This document shows, one piece after another, positions 2,503-21,425 of a stretch of 22,689 nucleotides of DNA; positions within the stretch are counted from its first letter, which is position 1, and the number at the start of each line of letters is the position of its first letter. The stretch spans positions 1 to 22,689 of the IMG/VR virus record IMGVR_UViG_3300020442_001917. The stretch is one strand, 5' to 3'. The notes under the pieces are model-generated. The model did not search any database, was not told the DNA's origin, and saw nothing but the letters and a program-made list of their open reading frames with translations. The position numbers and the translations under genes were made by a program. This stretch comes from a virus.

Positions 2503-3135
2503 CTATGCGTTGTTATTTTTTCTTTGAATTCGTTGCAAATTATTCTTGGAATCTTTGACGGAACATGCATCAGTAACACCACGAATAATTGAACCATAGA
2601 TTTGCAACTGAGCATTTGCAACTAACTCAGCATCTCCAGAAGTTACTATTGAATATTTGTTCTTGGCATTTACCAGAACTTTGTTTGCGTCAAGGGTGAT
2701 ATTTTCTGTTGCATGGAGTCTAATATTTCCTTTGGAACTATCTTCTCCAGTAGCATTGAATTCAATATCTTTCCCTTCAATCCTTACCTTACCATTCTCA
2801 GCAACAATACATATATTACCATTTCTAGCATGAAGCATCAAGGTGTCTTGTGCCTCTTCGTTATCGTCCCCACAACTAACAGTGAAGTTTCCTGGAGATA
2901 CACTTTGAGTCCATCCCTTTCTTCTTCCTGTCTTGTCCATACAGAAAGAATGTCGTCCATCATGTCCCTGTAAAAGAACTGATGAAGTTACTGAACCGTC
3001 TTCATGGATATGACCGAAGTGAATAGAACCATGGTCATTTCCATAACGAATTGCTGTAAAGTTTGCATCTGCCTGTCCTGTAGAAGAATTTTTATCAGGC
3101 AGTCTTGTTGGTTCTGAGTGTCTTTGTGTTGGCAT
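2503..3135 (-). CDS. Beta-helix tail needle-like protein (gp5 C-terminal domain-like)
   Basis: This encodes 210 residues. The N-terminal ~100 residues are mixed and include FGHIHEDGSVTSSVLLQGHDG. Residues about 100-185 are a run of short beta strands with Gly/Asn turns: NGNICIVAENGKVRIEG, then GNIRLHATENITLDANKVLV, then SGDAELVANAQLQIYGS. This is the look of the intertwined beta-helix in the T4 gp5 needle and VgrG spikes. In T4 that helix is fused to gp5; here the gp5-like protein (9057-10835) lacks it, so this separate protein may supply the needle. It follows the 1959-residue gene by 5 bases and has no clear Shine-Dalgarno, suggesting coupled translation. The fold assignment is by eye. Confidence 0.65.
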   Translation of the reverse strand: MPTQRHSEPTRLPDKNSSTGQADANFTAIRYGNDHGSIHFGHIHEDGSVTSSVLLQGHDGRHSFCMDKTGRRKGWTQSVSPGNFTVSCGDDNEEAQDTLMLHARNGNICIVAENGKVRIEGKDIEFNATGEDSSKGNIRLHATENITLDANKVLVNAKNKYSIVTSGDAELVANAQLQIYGSIIRGVTDACSVKDSKNNLQRIQRKNNNA

Positions 3136-12413: not shown

Positions 12414-14927
12414 TTAACCAACAAAACTGAGAATTTCTTTAAAGTTAATAGATGGCGTGGAAGGTGCAGACCTTATTGTAGGTTCTGACTTCATTGGTGC
12501 CTGTGCAATAACTTCCTTACGGTCAATCACAATAACTTCACCTGCAGTTGGGTCATTATAAGAGGCATAGTTCATTAAAATCTCAACTGCCTTCTGTCCC
12601 TCTGCCTTATTAATAGCACTTAAGAATCCAGGAAAGGCAGTTTGAATTGCCATCGTAGAATCCTTATCAATCACAAACTCACCACTGGTAAGCATTGCTG
12701 GTACTTTATCAATACCTTCTTGTCCCGTTACTTCACCGCCAAACTGAAGTCTTTGGAATGCATTATACATTTGCTGGGGTTTGATATGTGCAGCATTATT
12801 TCCAACACCAGCATAGTAACTGATACCAGAATCATCCTTAGGAATTGCTGCCCAGACTTTTGAAAGTCTAAGCATTGCTTCCTTAGGATTTTTTCTTGCC
12901 ATATCCTTTGTTACATCTGCTTGACCAGGACCAATCAAATACTCTGCAATCTTCTTCTGATTCTCTGCATTATACAGTGCAGTGTTGGGGTCTAATCCTA
13001 CTGCCCTTGCTCTATCATTTAAATACTCTGGTAGGTTTTGCCAAGCACCAACAGCACCAGTCGCTTTTCTTGCAACTTCAGCAATCGTCATCTTAGTAGC
13101 ACCAGGTAAGGTAGTGCTGGGATACATCGCTTCATATCCACCACGACCAGCTTCATACTTATAGATGAGATTTAGAACTGGTCCCCATCCACCCTCTACA
13201 ACCTGAGGAACATCAGTAGAAATATCTGCACCAGTAGCAGAATCTCTTTCTGTTGATACTGAACCAGGACCATAAGTAGAACCCTCTTCCATTACCTGAG
13301 GAGATATACCTGCCATACTTTCTATAGTTTGGGTTAAGAACTCCTCAATAGTTGTCGCACCTTTCTTCTTCTCTGTTGTTGTTTCTTCTTTCTTAGACTC
13401 TTCTATGTTTGCTTTGTTCTTAGCAAATAATCCTTTAAAAGTATTACCAACCCACTCAACAAAATTTGATGATGCAACAGAAGAATCCTTGAGAGAGTCT
13501 GCTGATACAATTCCACCATCTTTATAAGCAATTGCCAGGTTACTCTTCAGTTTTTCATCCTGGAATCCTTTTAATAATAAGTTATTAAATCCAGCACCAA
13601 TACTCTTATAATCAGATTGAGATGGATCATCACCAGCAAGTACTTTAGTTGCTGTAGCAAGAACAGGACCAAAGTAATCTATTTGACTGAATGCTTTTGT
13701 AGGACCAGAAAACTTAGATTTCTCATCATCAGTTTTTATCGGGGAAACTTTCTGTTCTCCCTTTGCATAGTTAGGTTTTACTACTCTTTGCTTTGGAGTA
13801 TCCAATGGTTTGATTTGACCACCCTCTTGGCGTCCTTGTATCTCTGCTGGTTGTGGTTCTTTTTCTTTAAAGATTGTATCATATAATAACCCACCAAGTT
13901 CAGCACCAGCAGCACCACCTAAGGCACCACCAATCCAGGTTCCAATACCAGGACCAAGAATAGTTCCAAGTGCTCCACCTAACCACATTCCAAGACCAGA
14001 ACCTACACCTCTGAATGCTGCTTTACCTACAGGGTCACCTGCTATCATTGATAATACAAACTCAATGATACCACCAATGATTGGTACTCTCTTTACAAGA
14101 GGTTTGATAATACTTACCGCACCAGATACAAGTTTTTGAGTTCCTTTAACAGCAGCAGTCCTAGCAAGTTTTTTTCCTCCAATACGGAGAGCAGTTCTCG
14201 TTATAGTCCTACCGGCACCGCGAGCAGCAACACCAGCAGCAACCTTTCCACCTGCGGCAGCAGTTTTTGCTACTTGTTTATTAACACCCTCAGCAACTTT
14301 GATTGCCGTCATTGCAGCAATCACAGCACCATTTAATAATGTGGTCAGGTTACTTGCTATAGAATCAAATCCTTTAGCAGCATCCTCACCGAAGATATTT
14401 GCTACCTGACCTCTTGTCCAATCGTATGCTTTATATCCCCAATCAATAAAGGTAACAAGACCATTAAGAATCTTACCACCAAAGTTAATCAACCATTCAC
14501 CAATTCCTACAAGACCTACAAAGACAGGTTTCAATAGAGGAGCAAACTCTACAAGTCTATAGAGTAGATATCCTCCAAGGACATTCATAAGGAACTGCTT
14601 TATCCTATCAAGGAAACTCATTCCTGGAACCTTAGGCAGGTCTAACTTACCACCAGTATCCTTTGGTTTCTTTTCTAACTTTGCTTCTCTTTTTGACCTT
14701 CTCTCTTGTTGTTCTTCTTTTCTCTTATCGTTTTCTTCTTTCTTCTTGGAAGCAAGAGTTCCCTCTAACAACCCAGCAATGGTAGTCAGTTTCTCCTTGA
14801 TAACTGTTGTCTTCTCTTGGTTCTCTGCTTTCTTGTCACTAAAAGTTGGAACAAGTTTACCTGCAGAAATAACACTTGTTCTTGGTTTTATGATTGCTGA
14901 ATCTGTTGCGCTAGGAAGTAGTTTCAT
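12414..14927 (-). CDS. Tape-measure-like virion protein with lysozyme-like domain
   Basis: This encodes 837 residues. Order: a basic coiled segment with KREAKLEKK (about 79-87); FLDRIKQFLMNVLGGYLLYRL (about 105-125); hydrophobic and glycine-zipper stretches (about 130-350); FLTQTIESMAGIS (about 525-538); then a lysozyme/transglycosylase-like domain (about 581-700) with YKYEAGRGGYEAMYP, AVGAWQNLPEYLNDRARAVG and ENQKKIAEYLI. The Glu in YEAG is a candidate catalytic acid. A later GIDKVPAMLTSGEFVI motif (about 731-746) is typical of tape-measure proteins. The ATG overlaps the upstream stop (TGATGA). It shares these modules with the 945-residue neighbour, so the two appear to be paralogues carrying different hydrolases. 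It may act in tail assembly and in local peptidoglycan cleavage at entry. The lysozyme fold is not proved. Confidence 0.7.
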   Translation of the reverse strand: MKLLPSATDSAIIKPRTSVISAGKLVPTFSDKKAENQEKTTVIKEKLTTIAGLLEGTLASKKKEENDKRKEEQQERRSKREAKLEKKPKDTGGKLDLPKVPGMSFLDRIKQFLMNVLGGYLLYRLVEFAPLLKPVFVGLVGIGEWLINFGGKILNGLVTFIDWGYKAYDWTRGQVANIFGEDAAKGFDSIASNLTTLLNGAVIAAMTAIKVAEGVNKQVAKTAAAGGKVAAGVAARGAGRTITRTALRIGGKKLARTAAVKGTQKLVSGAVSIIKPLVKRVPIIGGIIEFVLSMIAGDPVGKAAFRGVGSGLGMWLGGALGTILGPGIGTWIGGALGGAAGAELGGLLYDTIFKEKEPQPAEIQGRQEGGQIKPLDTPKQRVVKPNYAKGEQKVSPIKTDDEKSKFSGPTKAFSQIDYFGPVLATATKVLAGDDPSQSDYKSIGAGFNNLLLKGFQDEKLKSNLAIAYKDGGIVSADSLKDSSVASSNFVEWVGNTFKGLFAKNKANIEESKKEETTTEKKKGATTIEEFLTQTIESMAGISPQVMEEGSTYGPGSVSTERDSATGADISTDVPQVVEGGWGPVLNLIYKYEAGRGGYEAMYPSTTLPGATKMTIAEVARKATGAVGAWQNLPEYLNDRARAVGLDPNTALYNAENQKKIAEYLIGPGQADVTKDMARKNPKEAMLRLSKVWAAIPKDDSGISYYAGVGNNAAHIKPQQMYNAFQRLQFGGEVTGQEGIDKVPAMLTSGEFVIDKDSTMAIQTAFPGFLSAINKAEGQKAVEILMNYASYNDPTAGEVIVIDRKEVIAQAPMKSEPTIRSAPSTPSINFKEILSFVG

Positions 14928-17764
14928 CAGTAATCAATGATTCCTAAGAGGTTTGCTTTTTCTCTAGATGCAGAGGATGCACTGAAGGCAGGTATCTGAG
15001 TTGCTGTTACCTGACGTTGTGGTGCAGTAGCCTTTGTTCCACCGTCAATCACAGTCACTTTTGGTTTTGATTTTTGTAGCGGAGTAATCTCAGGTATCAC
15101 TGGTTTTGATTTACCAAGTTCAACCTGACCACCTCTCTGTGCTTTAACAGGAGCAGAAACAGTACCTAATTTAGCAGCAATCCTGCTTCGCATTTCTGGT
15201 CCACCTTCACCAATCTTCTGTCCCTTTCTTAACTTATCTAAGTCCCATCTCTCTCCTGTTCCACCCCATATAGTAGGACCATAATTATCTGAAGCATTTC
15301 TACCATCTAAATTAGAACCTGCTTCACCATGAGTCATCACATTTCTAATATTAATATCACCTGCAGTCCAACCCATACTCTTTCCGATAGTTGCTGCCTC
15401 TGTTGCCATTGCATCTAGTTGTGCTTCAGTAGGAGCTTGTGCCATGTTGGTTTCATTTGAACCTCCACCCATTGCTGCTACTGACAATCCAATAGAATTA
15501 GAATTTCTATTGTAAGTATGTCCGCTAGTTCTATCATAATCTACAAGTCTATGTTTCTTACCATCACCAGTAAAGACTGTATGATATGGTCCAACTACAC
15601 TATTATATCCACCAGCAGTCCAGTGCAAGTAAAGTGTCTTACCTTTCTTTGGATATACTCCAGGATTCTTTGCTCCTGGTGGAGTGCTTTGTGATTCTTT
15701 ATTTGCAGTCATTTTTCCTTCACCTCTACCACCATCACTACTACCACCACCAAGCATACTACCAACACCTGCCATAGATGTAATGGCATTCATTAAGAAT
15801 CCAATAATACCACCAGGTTCTTCTTTAGTACCAGTATCACCAGCAACATTAATACCTGGAAGTTGAGTTGCTTCCTTTGCTGCTTCTAACTCTGCTTCTT
15901 TTTGATCCTTTCCTTCAGAGATTGCTTTATTTTTTGCAATCTGAAACTTCTGATTATAATCGTGGAAAGTCTTTGCTTCTGGGTGTGTTGTTATACTCTT
16001 TGGAGGAACTAATTTAGATGCTGATGCTCTGCGACGTTTGTCATTAGTTCTCTGCCTGACAGATAGTTCTTTCTTAGTATTCTCAGAACCAAGAACCATA
16101 TTCCATTCATCTGAACCAGGAGATATGCCTGTCAATGTATCAGACTGACCAAACATATGTCCAAGTGGACCTGCCTTGGTGACAACCTTATTGATTTGTT
16201 TTACAACAACGTTTCCTTCAGGAGAGCGATCATAACCAACCACATATGACTTACCAGAATTACCTGGATTCTCAATATGCCTTGTAGTTTGCATTCCCTT
16301 GCGATACTCTGCAGGGTTAAATGTTACTGGTCCAACAGCACCACCACCCTGAGCATACATAGTGCCCTGCATAATCTTTGGTTCGTTTGTTCCACCACCA
16401 GCAGCATTCATTGCCATCATAGTATCAAGACCATATTTCTGCACAGCACCAGTGCTCATTACAAACTCACCATTGGTAAGCATTGCAGGAACTTTATCAA
16501 TACCAGACTCACCCTTTACTTTGCCACCACCACTGTATTGACCAAATCCTAACATGTCAGCACTGATTGGAGCACCAGTCATTCCACCAAACTCTCTAAT
16601 CTCATCTGCCTGAGATTTGTCTGGGTTATTTTCATCCTTAATTACTGCAGTTCCTTTTTGGTTTGCACTAATTGCCGCAGCTGCAGTGCCCGTGACAACA
16701 GCAGCACCAAGGAAGAGTGGATTCTTAAGAAGTCTCAGAATCTTTGGCGTAAACTTAAACAGTAAACCCGATACGGTTGATATCAACCCACCAAGTTTAG
16801 TTCCAAATAATAAATATCCTCCAAGTAACGCAGGCCAAAAGTCACCTAAGAATCTAATAATATTATCAATCTTCTTCTTGTTATCTGGATCTCCAAACCA
16901 TTCTATCAACTTAAACAGTGCTCTGCCTAAGAATATAGTTGTGAAATACTCAAGTATTTTATCAAAGATAGACTTGACTGGGGCAACAATAGTCTTTGCT
17001 GCCTTCATCAATACAGAATCTTTCTTCTCTAACTTATTTTCTCTGACAGATCTCTTCTCTCTTTCCTCTTTCTTTCTCTCCTTATTTGCTTTCTTCTCTT
17101 CAAGTTTTTGATCCTTCTTTATGACCTCAAGGATATCATCAATACCCTTTAGAATATCATCAAAATTACTTTCTCTTTCTTCTTCTAAAGGATCAACTTT
17201 AATCTTCTGCTGTGTTGGTACAACTAAAGTACCTCCACCAGCACCAAGAGAACCTACCTCTTCCTTATCAGATTCTTTCTTTCTGTTCAGAAAATTTTCA
17301 ACGAATCTACCGAACTTATCACTATCGTTTCTTGTTTTAAACCCTTCTTTTCTTTCCTCACTAGTCAGTTGCTCACCTTCAATGGTGCCTTCTGATATCA
17401 ACTCATCACGATACTTTGCATATCTATCACCAAAGAATTTCTGAGGTACAATCGCACCTGCTTTGATTGTAGTTACCTTTGGTTCTATTGGGGACTCTTC
17501 TTGAATAGAACCTAGTAAATCATCAAGTCCTTCTGGAATATCTTCGTCCTCCTCCTCGCCAACCATATCCCTTGCCATCTCATGTAAGTCGGTATCATTA
17601 CGACCCTGAATGAGTTTACTATCTAAATCACTAGTCTCTTCGGCATCTAAAGAATTATAATACTTAGACAGTATAACAATCTGGTCATCAGAAAGCTTGG
17701 CAACAAGATCCTCTCCCAGCATTCTGCTGTAAGTCTTTCTTATCTGTGCCTTACTTCTAGCCAT
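14927..17764 (-). CDS. Tape-measure-like virion protein with amidase domain
   Basis: This encodes 945 residues. The N-terminal ~250 are charged, and a basic coiled stretch RENKLEKK lies near 240-247. Next comes SIFDKILEYFTTIFLGRALF (about 265-284), then hydrophobic segments (about 302-370), then SGIDKVPAMLTNGEFVM (about 418-434), FLMNAITSMAGVG (about 655-668) and an N-acetylmuramoyl-L-alanine amidase-type domain (about 705-850). In that domain LYLHWTAGG and MTHGE supply likely zinc-binding histidines, with a C-terminal Asp candidate in RWDLDK. The amidase would cut the stem peptide of the host wall. It begins inside the 58-residue ORF by overlap and has no clear Shine-Dalgarno. Its position right after the chaperone pair supports a tape-measure or internal-tail role. 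Confidence 0.75.
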   Translation of the reverse strand: MARSKAQIRKTYSRMLGEDLVAKLSDDQIVILSKYYNSLDAEETSDLDSKLIQGRNDTDLHEMARDMVGEEEDEDIPEGLDDLLGSIQEESPIEPKVTTIKAGAIVPQKFFGDRYAKYRDELISEGTIEGEQLTSEERKEGFKTRNDSDKFGRFVENFLNRKKESDKEEVGSLGAGGGTLVVPTQQKIKVDPLEEERESNFDDILKGIDDILEVIKKDQKLEEKKANKERKKEEREKRSVRENKLEKKDSVLMKAAKTIVAPVKSIFDKILEYFTTIFLGRALFKLIEWFGDPDNKKKIDNIIRFLGDFWPALLGGYLLFGTKLGGLISTVSGLLFKFTPKILRLLKNPLFLGAAVVTGTAAAAISANQKGTAVIKDENNPDKSQADEIREFGGMTGAPISADMLGFGQYSGGGKVKGESGIDKVPAMLTNGEFVMSTGAVQKYGLDTMMAMNAAGGGTNEPKIMQGTMYAQGGGAVGPVTFNPAEYRKGMQTTRHIENPGNSGKSYVVGYDRSPEGNVVVKQINKVVTKAGPLGHMFGQSDTLTGISPGSDEWNMVLGSENTKKELSVRQRTNDKRRRASASKLVPPKSITTHPEAKTFHDYNQKFQIAKNKAISEGKDQKEAELEAAKEATQLPGINVAGDTGTKEEPGGIIGFLMNAITSMAGVGSMLGGGSSDGGRGEGKMTANKESQSTPPGAKNPGVYPKKGKTLYLHWTAGGYNSVVGPYHTVFTGDGKKHRLVDYDRTSGHTYNRNSNSIGLSVAAMGGGSNETNMAQAPTEAQLDAMATEAATIGKSMGWTAGDINIRNVMTHGEAGSNLDGRNASDNYGPTIWGGTGERWDLDKLRKGQKIGEGGPEMRSRIAAKLGTVSAPVKAQRGGQVELGKSKPVIPEITPLQKSKPKVTVIDGGTKATAPQRQVTATQIPAFSASSASREKANLLGIIDY

Positions 17765-17933
17765 TTGCCGTCTGCTGCTTTAATTTTTCATCTTCAAGAT
17801 GCGCTTGTAATAATCCAACATAAACGTCTCGTTCCCAAGGAATAAGATTTTCAATCTCAGTTAATGAATATTTATGGTACTGTATTAAGGCAAAATTGAG
17901 ACGATAGTAACTCTCAAGATCCATATGGATCAT
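17757..17933 (-). CDS. 58-residue gp51-like ORF, probable frameshift extension of gp26
   Basis: The frame runs from ATG 17933 to TAG 17759-17757 and is too short to appear in routine ORF lists. It reads MIHMDLESYYRLNFAL..., and its core SLTEIENLIPWERDVYVGLL resembles the small C-terminal extensions of phage tail assembly chaperones. In T4, gene 51 follows gene 26 directly, so this is its positional counterpart, although T4 gp51 is far longer (249 residues). The ATG lies 2 bases after the gp26 stop and has no proper Shine-Dalgarno (AGG only one base away). It is in the -1 frame relative to gp26 and can be reached by a slip on T TTT TTC, giving a 299-residue fusion. Its stop overlaps the start of the amidase-bearing gene. 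Confidence 0.75.
   Translation of the reverse strand: MIHMDLESYYRLNFALIQYHKYSLTEIENLIPWERDVYVGLLQAHLEDEKLKQQTANG
17869..17876 (-). promoter_or_regulatory. T4-late-like promoter box CATAAATA
   Basis: CATAAATA is found inside the 58-residue ORF, 105 bases before the ATG of the amidase-bearing protein. It is the same octamer as upstream of gp26 and of the giant virion protein. Because it lies within coding sequence it could be coincidental. Confidence 0.35.
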
Positions 17934-17948
17934 GCCTACGCGAAAAAA
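17918..17948 (-). promoter_or_regulatory. Candidate -1 frameshift site with downstream hairpin
   Basis: On the minus strand the last codons of gp26 are AGT TTT TTC GCG TAG, containing the slippery heptamer T TTT TTC (17948-17942). After a one-base backward slip, reading continues CGC GTA GGC ATG ATC into the 58-residue ORF. Ten bases downstream is a perfect palindrome GATCCATATGGATC (17931-17918), able to form a short hairpin that could stimulate slippage. Phage P2 uses a T TTT TTG site in its E/E' chaperone genes (established knowledge), so the arrangement is closely comparable. Confidence 0.7.
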
Positions 17949-18655
17949 CTTGACAGTCCCTCCAGTACAACCATACTCTCTACATTAGTATTTGGATTGG
18001 TTACCGTAATCGTATGAGACAGTTTAGGCATTGTCTCAAAGAACTTCTCAATATCCTTGAACTGTGTGGAGTTCATTGACTCAACAAATTCTTTAATTTC
18101 TTTCTTACTACAATCTGCTGCTGCCCATACTTCATCTTCAGTATAAATCTTATCAATACAAGTTGCAATCAATTCAAACGATTGATCCATCGCATTCTTA
18201 TCACTAAAGTCAAAATTATTCTGAATGAATTGATCCAGTGATGGATACTTCATCTCCATCATAATTGTAGGATCAATTCTGATTTGTTTTTTATGATCTT
18301 CATTCTTCTGAACTTGAATGTCATCAAGATCAATCGTCACAGGAACTTGTGTTTTACCATCATCAGGACAAATAATATTTACTTCAATCTCTTCACCAAC
18401 AGACTTACCTCTGATGTTGAGGAACAGATATTCAATATCAAATGTAGGAAGTTTCTCTACTTTAATACCCTTTGTGATGATGCAACTTTGAATAACCGTT
18501 TTGATTGCATTAGTAATCTGCTTGGAGTTTTCACTTTCCAATGCAATTACAAGTACCTTCTCTTCTTTAACTAGAAATGGTCTATATGTAACTGTTTCTC
18601 CTGTTGATGGCAACTCAAGTTCATATCTTGGCGTAGCAATCTTTGGTAAAGGCAT
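17936..18655 (-). CDS. gp26: Baseplate hub/assembly protein gp26
   Basis: This encodes 239 residues (T4 gp26 is 208). The opening MPLPKIATPRYELELPST, then YRPFLVKEEKVLVIALES, is the hallmark of the T4 gp26 baseplate family. The middle (DIEYLFLNIRGKSVGEEIEVNI.CPDDGKT) and a helical C-terminal part also fit. A good Shine-Dalgarno AGGAC lies six bases before the ATG, and a CATAAATA late-like box 26 bases before it. The gene ends in a T TTT TTC slippery sequence followed by the -1-frame 58-residue ORF, so two products are expected: gp26 and a 299-residue gp26-gp51-like fusion. That suggests a tail-assembly-chaperone role rather than a purely structural one. Confidence 0.87.
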   Translation of the reverse strand: MPLPKIATPRYELELPSTGETVTYRPFLVKEEKVLVIALESENSKQITNAIKTVIQSCIITKGIKVEKLPTFDIEYLFLNIRGKSVGEEIEVNIICPDDGKTQVPVTIDLDDIQVQKNEDHKKQIRIDPTIMMEMKYPSLDQFIQNNFDFSDKNAMDQSFELIATCIDKIYTEDEVWAAADCSKKEIKEFVESMNSTQFKDIEKFFETMPKLSHTITVTNPNTNVESMVVLEGLSSFFA

Positions 18656-18695: not shown

Positions 18696-19268
18696 CTAAA
18701 ATCCTTCATCCTCTATGACATATCTGAGGTAAGTCATAGACACAGTACATTTCAATACATCTGTAGAACTATATGACAGAGGCATTGAATTTATTGCAAT
18801 AGGATATGCATCATAGAAACTATAATGTAAAGGTCTTCCTTCATCCTTCTCAAACTTAGTCACACCCATATATGTTTTATACTCACTAGGATACTTTACT
18901 TTATAATCATAGTTTGAAAATCTTCTATCATTTCTTTCATTATCACCAACAATAAAATTCATCCACTTTTCAAAGTATCTAATCTGAGAATACTTTTCCC
19001 CTTCAACATAGAATGTTAAATCAAGTCTGTCATCATACATTCTTCTGTATGCATTTCTTTCCGTCACACCATGACGATCACCTGTAATCTCTTGAGTATT
19101 CAGAGATGATCCAGGAAGAGATGCCTCAGAACAAGACATGTGAAACTCATCAATGGATGTGGTGTTAAAAAACTCACTCAATACACTTGGTGTAGCTATA
19201 CTAACTTTAAATTTTGATGTTAGTGATGGTCTTAGCAACGCACTTTTTATTTGTCCTACAGTTGCCAT
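18696..19268 (-). CDS. Tail-tube-fold protein, gp19/gp54-like
   Basis: This encodes 190 residues. The layout resembles the T4 tail-tube fold: an N-terminal strand FKVSIATP; a loop with SCSEASLPGSSLNTQEITGDRHG; a tube-like MYDDRLDLTFYVEGEKYSQIRYFEKWMNFIVG; and a C-terminal IAINSMPLSYSSTDVLKCTVSMTYLRYV, comparable to the end of gp19 where a gap in the sheet is bridged. It is the first gene of the minus-strand hub operon. In T4 the baseplate-proximal tube proteins gp48 and gp54 cap the hub, and gp48 is encoded nearby, so this may be the tube initiator gp54 or a tube paralogue. No Shine-Dalgarno is evident. A divergent 30-base gap separates it from gp4. Confidence 0.68.
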   Translation of the reverse strand: MATVGQIKSALLRPSLTSKFKVSIATPSVLSEFFNTTSIDEFHMSCSEASLPGSSLNTQEITGDRHGVTERNAYRRMYDDRLDLTFYVEGEKYSQIRYFEKWMNFIVGDNERNDRRFSNYDYKVKYPSEYKTYMGVTKFEKDEGRPLHYSFYDAYPIAINSMPLSYSSTDVLKCTVSMTYLRYVIEDEGF

Positions 19269-20102: not shown

Positions 20103-21425
20103 ATGGCGATACGAAGATCACAGAGAACGATAGGTAGTATACCGATAGCAACCGTCTTGGAAGTAAATGATGAGACTGGTGAAGCTTTTTTGTATGAAAA
20201 CAAGGGTATCTTTGGTAGAACATTAATCGCAACATCAGATAATGTTGGAGATGAATGGAATGTTACTAACCAATTTCGTAGAACATGGAATAATACTAAT
20301 GGTACAACTTTAAATAATACACAATTTAATGATTTTTTTGACACAGAACTAAGAAAAACTTTTAATAACGATAGGGCATCTCTTATTAATGCACACTCTA
20401 ATAATGATGTAAAAAGAGCACTGAAAGAGGCAGGTGTTCCAGGTGTAAAAGATCCAGAAACTAATACAACATCAGATAATACTACAGATACTCCAACAGT
20501 TGCAGATAATTCAAGGGATCAAGGTGATACTACAAAAACGGCTAGCAATCTTAATTTATCGGGTCTTAGAGGTGTATCAATTTTAGACGGAAAAGGAATG
20601 CCAACAAGCAAGAATTTGAGGTATCCTGTTGATATGTCTGATGAAATGAATAAACTTCAGATTAATATTAGAGAGTATAGTCCTAAAGGAATTGATAATA
20701 AAAAAGGAACTTTCCAAACCGCAGATAGACAGAAAGGAAATATTATAACAACAATCTTCTTACCGATCCCTGGTGGTATTCAGGATCAAAACCAGGTAAG
20801 TTGGGGAAAAGGTGATATGAATGCTCTGCAACAAGCAGCAGCACAGTTTGCTGTAGATACTATTACAAAAGGTGTTGAAGGAGCAAAGCAATCTGCAACA
20901 GAAATTGCTGAAAATATAACCAAAAATACTGGTGATTTAAAAAACCTAGCTGCTGCAGCGATGGCGGGTGCTGCTTCTGGTCTTGGTTCACAGTTACTTA
21001 CAAGACAAACAGGTCTCATTATTAATCCTAATGCAGAACTCTTGTTCCAAGGTCCTTCAATGAGACAGTTTGGATTCTCTTTTAATATGAGTGCTAGAAG
21101 TGAAGGCGAAGCAACATCTATACTGACAATCATTAGAGCACTGAAGCAGGGTATGTCTGTTCGTAGAAGTGAAAGTGGATTATTTTTAATGTCTCCATAC
21201 CTGTTTGAACTTAAGTATCTTGCTGGGTCAGATGCCCTGAACCCAAACTTAAATAAATTTAAGATGTGTGCTATGACTGGATTGAATGTAAATTATACAC
21301 CCAATCAAACGTTCATGGCATTTGAAAATAATATGCCTGTTGCATATCAACTTAATATGCAATTCCAAGAACTTGAACCAATCTTTAATGATGACTACAA
21401 TGCTGACAACTCAATAGGTTTCTAA
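20103..21425 (+). CDS. gp48: Baseplate tail-tube cap gp48
   Basis: This encodes 440 residues (T4 gp48 is 364). The N-terminal ~90 residues form a domain (RRSQRTIGSIPIATVLEVND...). Residues about 100-155 are low-complexity, rich in Asn, Thr and Asp, and probably disordered. The C-terminal part carries gp48 landmarks: INPNAELLFQGPSMRQFGFSF, then IRALKQGMSVRRS, FLMSPYLFELKYL, MCAMTGLNVNYTPNQTFMAF and YQLNMQFQELEPI. A helical Ala-rich segment (about 240-295) precedes these. In T4 gp48 sits on the hub and nucleates the tube. The ATG lies 13 bases after the upstream stop, with no clear Shine-Dalgarno; gp53 starts one base after its own stop. Confidence 0.88.
   Translation: MAIRRSQRTIGSIPIATVLEVNDETGEAFLYENKGIFGRTLIATSDNVGDEWNVTNQFRRTWNNTNGTTLNNTQFNDFFDTELRKTFNNDRASLINAHSNNDVKRALKEAGVPGVKDPETNTTSDNTTDTPTVADNSRDQGDTTKTASNLNLSGLRGVSILDGKGMPTSKNLRYPVDMSDEMNKLQINIREYSPKGIDNKKGTFQTADRQKGNIITTIFLPIPGGIQDQNQVSWGKGDMNALQQAAAQFAVDTITKGVEGAKQSATEIAENITKNTGDLKNLAAAAMAGAASGLGSQLLTRQTGLIINPNAELLFQGPSMRQFGFSFNMSARSEGEATSILTIIRALKQGMSVRRSESGLFLMSPYLFELKYLAGSDALNPNLNKFKMCAMTGLNVNYTPNQTFMAFENNMPVAYQLNMQFQELEPIFNDDYNADNSIGF

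Follow-up and report, generated by a model that had tools for sequence, protein, structure and literature searches.

The 3′ end of a gp26-like gene in a 22,689-nt stretch of DNA from a T4-like marine cyanophage (positions 1 to 22,689 of IMG/VR virus record IMGVR_UViG_3300020442_001917, hereafter the window) very probably carries a programmed −1 ribosomal frameshift site, at which the gene would be joined to a gp51-like open reading frame (ORF), the two resulting forms being putative tail assembly chaperones (TACs); tailed phages typically use this device to obtain two versions of such a tail-building helper. The sequence, the register, conservation, the loss of start codons, covariation of the stem and natural in-frame fusions (T4 gp51) are observed; slippage in cells, its efficiency and the chaperone function are inferred, the last by analogy with phages lambda and P2. 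The elements of the junction, given in window coordinates, are the following:

17936..18655, minus strand: gp26-like gene, putative short form (TAC-N type, 239 amino acids (aa), PF12322 T4_baseplate), assigned by Pfam and phrog profile matches.
17942..17948, minus strand: slippery heptamer T TTT TTC in the gp26 frame, identified from the sequence and its conservation.
17941-17939, minus strand: GCG, the single sense codon between heptamer and stop.
17936..17938, minus strand: the TAG that ends gp26, reached one sense codon past the heptamer.
17934..17942, minus strand: linker codons CGC GTA GGC (Arg-Val-Gly), read only upon a −1 slip.
17757..17933, minus strand: gp51-like −1 frame ORF of 58 aa, putative TAC-C type extension, assigned by phrog profiles; its annotated start codon is not conserved.
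17918..17931, minus strand: downstream hairpin GATCC-ATAT-GGATC, equal to a 14-base palindrome and probably the frameshift stimulator, supported by compensatory stem changes, covariation and a local minimum of the minimum free energy (MFE).

The gp26 gene ends AGT TTT TTC GCG TAG, with the heptamer in the X XXY YYZ phase, and the dinucleotide GC separates its stop from the ATG of the gp51-like ORF at 17933. A −1 slip would be read as CGC GTA GGC ATG ATC..., giving by translation the peptide ...SSFF-RVG-MIHMDLESYY... and a fusion of 299 aa. The perfect palindrome GATCCATATGGATC (14 bases, 17931-17918) begins 10 nt 3′ of the heptamer, and no Shine-Dalgarno-like motif was found in TGTCAAGTTTTTTCGCGTAGGC, the sequence preceding this ATG. 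The gp26 ending, the heptamer, the Arg-Val-Gly path, the 58-residue ORF, the 299-residue fusion, the palindrome and the lack of a usable ribosome binding site, as described in the original prediction, all hold in the sequence. The heptamer alone is nevertheless weak evidence, since 27 in-frame X XXY YYZ heptamers (Y = A/T) occur across the ~21.5 kb of coding sequence of this AT-rich window, and the case therefore rests on conservation. Three of the other heptamers were read as candidate frameshift sites, one within 2503-3135 and two (T TTT TTG and T TTT TTT) inside the tail-tube-cap gene at 20103-21425; their −1 frames close immediately, and the two latter were considered ordinary.

Conservation was followed in a close set of the 80 best IMG/VR relatives and in a wider set, for which six further family members were used as queries to reach more distant groups, resulting in 198 distinct junctions from which the T4-type and Ackermannviridae-like groups were excluded. 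All 80 close relatives keep the heptamer, the codon, the stop position and the −1 frame, and T TTT TTN was found in frame in 198/198 distinct junctions (Z being C in 160, T in 19, A in 18 and G in 1). This variation at Z, including A and G, means that Phe is swapped for Leu while the slippery X XXY YY is retained. Moreover, in every junction whose −1 frame ended inside the available sequence, this frame ran open for 57-67 codons, and the gp26 stop lay 10 nt from the heptamer start in 176 of the 198 junctions and directly after the heptamer in 21. The 61-aa −1 reading also matched contiguously in many cyanophages (tblastn). Of seven named phages examined separately, four (YB07, VmeM-32, 1.081.O and D480) retain T TTT TTY, XG4 carries T TTT TTA, and D492 and K444, whose junction resembles that of Ackermannviridae, have no heptamer. 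The junctions of Ackermannviridae and similar relatives read A/G ATT TTC, A CTT TTC or G CTT TTT, and their gp26 stop sits in TAATG or TAATT. Overall, the invariance of the heptamer together with the open −1 frame in 198 distinct relatives is far beyond chance; the features on whose conservation the original prediction had been staked, heptamer and −1 register, were kept in every relative examined outside the two excluded groups.

Codon usage at the slippery site was compared with that of the other conserved Phe and Ser columns of gp26 in 132 close relatives. F237 was encoded by TTT in 132/132 and F238 by TTC in 131/131, plus one Leu encoded by TTA, whereas all other conserved Phe columns mixed TTT and TTC. 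Likewise, the Ser preceding this Phe pair was encoded only by AGT or TCT, whereas other conserved Ser columns freely used TCA, TCG and TCC, and where the residue was changed to Gly, Asp or Asn, its codon still ended in T (GGT, GAT and AAT). As judged from these alignments, the codon pattern reflects selection acting at the nucleotide level, in the phase that tandem tRNA slippage requires.

The codon at the position of the window's ATG was ATG in only 92 of the 198 junctions and CTN, TTA, TTG or GTC in the others. Furthermore, 40/198 had no ATG, GTG or TTG ahead of the conserved gp51 core (e.g. the genome labelled L066, ACG-2014d and Aeromonas 65) and a further 22 had only GTG or TTG there; for the 40 start-less gp51 parts, frameshifting is the only obvious route to their synthesis. 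A start at 17933 is thus not conserved, which bears on the efficient independent initiation that the original prediction had named as the opposite outcome, and an independent gp51 start was ruled out as a general mechanism on these grounds. The annotation of Synechococcus phage ACG-2014d contains no gp51, and the ORF there has no start codon. GenBank records omit gp51 or place its start inside the ORF, giving lengths of 120 nt (1555-1674 of the record labelled L086), 144 nt (2250-2393 of L087) or 81 nt (2292-2372 of L090); such omission or shortening is an annotation artefact of the frameshift. Alternatively, a free gp51 could arise through termination-coupled reinitiation, starting from the ATG 2 bases past the gp26 stop, the heptamer being a by-product of the conserved Phe-Phe. 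The closeness of ATG and stop in the window and in those 92 relatives, as well as the overlap of stop and start as TAATG in KVP40-type and Vibrio phages, would fit this explanation, which is however very improbable given that the ATG is present in under half of the junctions, that 40 of them lack any start codon, that no Shine-Dalgarno motif precedes the window's ATG and that the invariant codon choice in the heptamer differs from that of other conserved Phe codons.

The palindrome was studied in 79 distinct aligned junctions, using 500 shuffles for comparison. Its 5-bp stem showed 85.8% of standard pairs, and the stem cells changed on both sides amounted to 47, compared to 10.6 in the shuffles, none of which (0/500) reached as high a value; sliding the partner destroyed the signal. 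In addition, the strongest mutual-information pair of the 60-column region was a stem pair, and positions 17928/17921 covary: across the loop, the third, synonymous position of an Ile/Val codon varies together with the initial base of an Asp/Asn codon, with counts (C-G 42, C-A 0, T-G 4 and T-A 8) that ignore kinship among the sequences. The 40 nt past the heptamer had a mean MFE of −8.3 kcal/mol, with z < −2 in 41% of cases as opposed to 2-11% in the other windows compared, and the stems found at this same place differ among groups (P-HM1, S-PM2, Cr30 and DLP6). By its compensatory changes, the palindrome noticed in the original prediction is a downstream hairpin, recovered as a covarying stem at about the usual stimulator distance, and it probably stimulates slippage. 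Folding energy was lowered a second time in the relatives at ~17810-17850, ~100 nt past the heptamer (mean −6.2 kcal/mol, mean z −0.4), a dip probably due to the conserved codons for IPWER and not to a selected structure.

These results also bear on whether it might be RNA polymerase, slipping along the six T residues, and not the ribosome that causes the shift. A run of at least six T is indeed invariant, but its phase is always NNT TTT TTN, the leading T being kept despite the codon changes mentioned above (AGT, TCT, GGT, GAT and AAT); such a strict phase is needed for ribosomal tandem slippage and not for polymerase slippage, which, together with the covarying RNA hairpin at about the usual stimulator distance, makes a transcriptional origin extremely improbable. 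Programmed −1 frameshifting on the ribosome, by contrast, agrees with the conservation of heptamer and register, the loss of start codons and the codon control. Under this mechanism, most ribosomes translating gp26 would stop at TAG and yield the 239-aa short form, while a fraction would undergo a tandem −1 slip of both tRNA-Phe on T TTT TTC, probably aided by the hairpin starting 10 nt downstream, and would read through Arg-Val-Gly into the gp51-like frame to give the long form of 299 aa. If they behave like lambda gpG/gpGT and P2 gpE/gpE+E′, both products may serve as chaperones of tail assembly, holding on to the tape-measure protein and bringing in components of the tail tube or baseplate hub.

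The adjacency of genes 26 and 51 in T4 had been cited in favour of the original prediction. The two genes are adjacent, but this is misleading as support, as they lie divergently on opposite strands (L094:9803-11229) and are separate short and long paralogues. T4 gp26 consists of PF12322 alone, i.e. the short form, while T4 gp51 consists of PF12322 (residues 1-201, E-value 3.9e-52) followed in one frame by the same C-terminal tail as in the window ORF, and the same in-frame joining of PF12322 to the gp51 tail is seen in Thanatos-2 gp51. Both phrog_634 and phrog_150 match the window ORF as well as T4 gp51, and the gp26 and T4-type gp51 alignments, compared as profiles, matched with an E-value of 2.9e-11; with single sequences, phmmer found no match among T4 gp26, T4 gp51 and the window fusion, profile methods being needed. 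Unlike the window, T4-type gp26 genes have no slippery heptamer, reading GAG TTC TTT GAG (the end of gp26 in T4 itself) and variants instead, and T4 gp51 likewise has no slippery site. By its profile matches, T4 has a separate gene for each form, the two being paralogues, and since gp51 is an in-frame long form and gp26 its short paralogue, T4 needs no frameshift.

As for the identity of the proteins, gp26 matched PF12322 in Pfam (E-value 4.3e-76, 255.9 bits compared to a cut-off of 24.5) and phrog_150, 'baseplate hub' (E-value 1.8e-80), while the 58-aa ORF matched phrog_634, 'baseplate hub assembly catalyst' (E-value 4.4e-26). The latter also matched columns 241-280 of the 282-column phrog_150 profile, just past the gp26 part, which was the first sign of a single gp26+gp51 chain in some relatives. 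The neighbouring genes are the following:

18696..19268, minus strand: gene upstream of gp26, a tail-tube-fold protein by profile match (PF23849, E-value 1.4e-14) and gp54-like by position and gene order.
14927..17764, minus strand: next gene, a 945-aa probable tape-measure-type protein with an Amidase_2 domain, assigned by profile matches.

The place upstream of gp26 is occupied by gp54 or a tail tube gene in Aeromonas 65, phi-pp2, 1.081.O and D480, and the gp51-like ORF and the 945-aa gene overlap by 8 nt (17757-17764). Moreover, the consecutive long tail genes 14927-17764 and 12414-14927 both carry GxxGIDKVPAMLTxGEFV, a motif typical of tape-measure proteins, the Amidase_2 domain being in the former; either of them is a candidate tape measure.

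Several observations weigh against the proposed frameshift and chaperone function. In the Ackermannviridae-like group, the −1 gp51-type ORF is present and the canonical heptamer absent, and a Methylophilales-type group shows little structure downstream (mean −3.4 kcal/mol), a strong hairpin being therefore not universal. The claim that a tape-measure gene follows fits the gene order and the typical motif, but the tape-measure phrog matches of the 945-aa gene were weak (E-value ~0.002-0.003). The gp26 structural model (predicted local distance difference test, pLDDT, of 87) had as its top match among 350,542 PDB chains the HK97 tail assembly chaperone 2OB9, with an E-value of 0.28 and a target template modelling (TM) score of 0.42, which is not significant and represents a hint rather than proof. 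Direct homology between gp26 and lambda gpG was also considered, and hhalign detected no similarity between them. A PDB sequence search with gp26 and T4 gp51 gave no match, and a fold search of a T4-type gp51 model gave nothing meaningful in the PDB; in a viral library, the same model recovered mostly gp26/gp51 relatives and phage proteins without names, together with one 'tape measure chaperone' from Citrobacter phage Moon (E-value 0.0023).

In another reading, the frameshift might be real and the pair serve baseplate-hub assembly only. In T4, both proteins are classed as chaperones of hub assembly, gp51 being essential, absent from the particle and of unknown function (PMC3004832), and neither fold nor sequence comparison gave a significant connection between gp26 and the lambda-type chaperones. 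However, this restriction to the hub is unlikely, as the order of tube-fold gene, gp26-51 and long tail gene, the 8-nt overlap and the production of a short and a long form match lambda and P2, and the pair has been assigned to the tail assembly chaperones according to the literature as cited in PMC10885494 and PMC12846349, in agreement with the original prediction of a T4-type chaperone pair.

Accepting the frameshift and the chaperone pair, two gene annotations would be corrected across hundreds of cyanophage genomes. Very probably, gp51 is no catalyst in its own right and forms the tail of a protein made by frameshifting, which GenBank annotation often misses or shortens. On balance, cyanophage-type T4-like viruses appear to possess a fast-evolving, covarying stimulatory hairpin 6-10 nt downstream of the heptamer and a gp51 without independent translation, the recoding signal having been remodelled at least two times (separate genes in T4, a non-canonical site in Ackermannviridae). 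Furthermore, one recoded gene in most T4-like phages would correspond to two divergent T4 paralogues, which would explain why T4 has long appeared an exception among tailed phages. A 2022 study by Vladimirov, Gautam and Davidson reportedly names T4 genes 26 and 51. As far as that study is represented in later papers, the central claim that gp26 and gp51 are tail assembly chaperones, and that T4-like phages other than those of the T4 group use frameshifting, is already known (Vladimirov et al. 2022); the putative additions made here (scale, codon control, start-less gp51 ORFs and the covarying hairpin) are incremental.

The system of the window can finally be compared with those known. The frameshift was described as conserved in long-tailed phages 'except T4' (Atkins et al. 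2016, PMC5009743). The poly-T signals in the TAC-N genes were subsequently presented as sites of frameshifting for T4-like phages (Vladimirov et al. 2022, as cited in PMC12846349), some of which have instead a short gene plus a fused long gene (the same study, as cited in PMC10885494); as far as these citations convey, the TAC-N/TAC-NC pairs (Virology 566:9-15) resemble the window in their short and long chaperones and poly-T −1 signals. Lambda G/GT is alike in that a −1 shift takes place near the end of G and in a long form overlapping the start of the tape-measure gene H (T/H by 8 nt), and neither gpG nor gpGT is present in virions (PMC5009743); it differs in its heptamer (G GGA AAG) and in having no detectable similarity to gp26. 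Phage P2 E/E+E′ shares the same frameshift device and an 8-nt overlap, there of E+E′ with T, but has six sense codons from the heptamer to the E stop, compared to one in the window.

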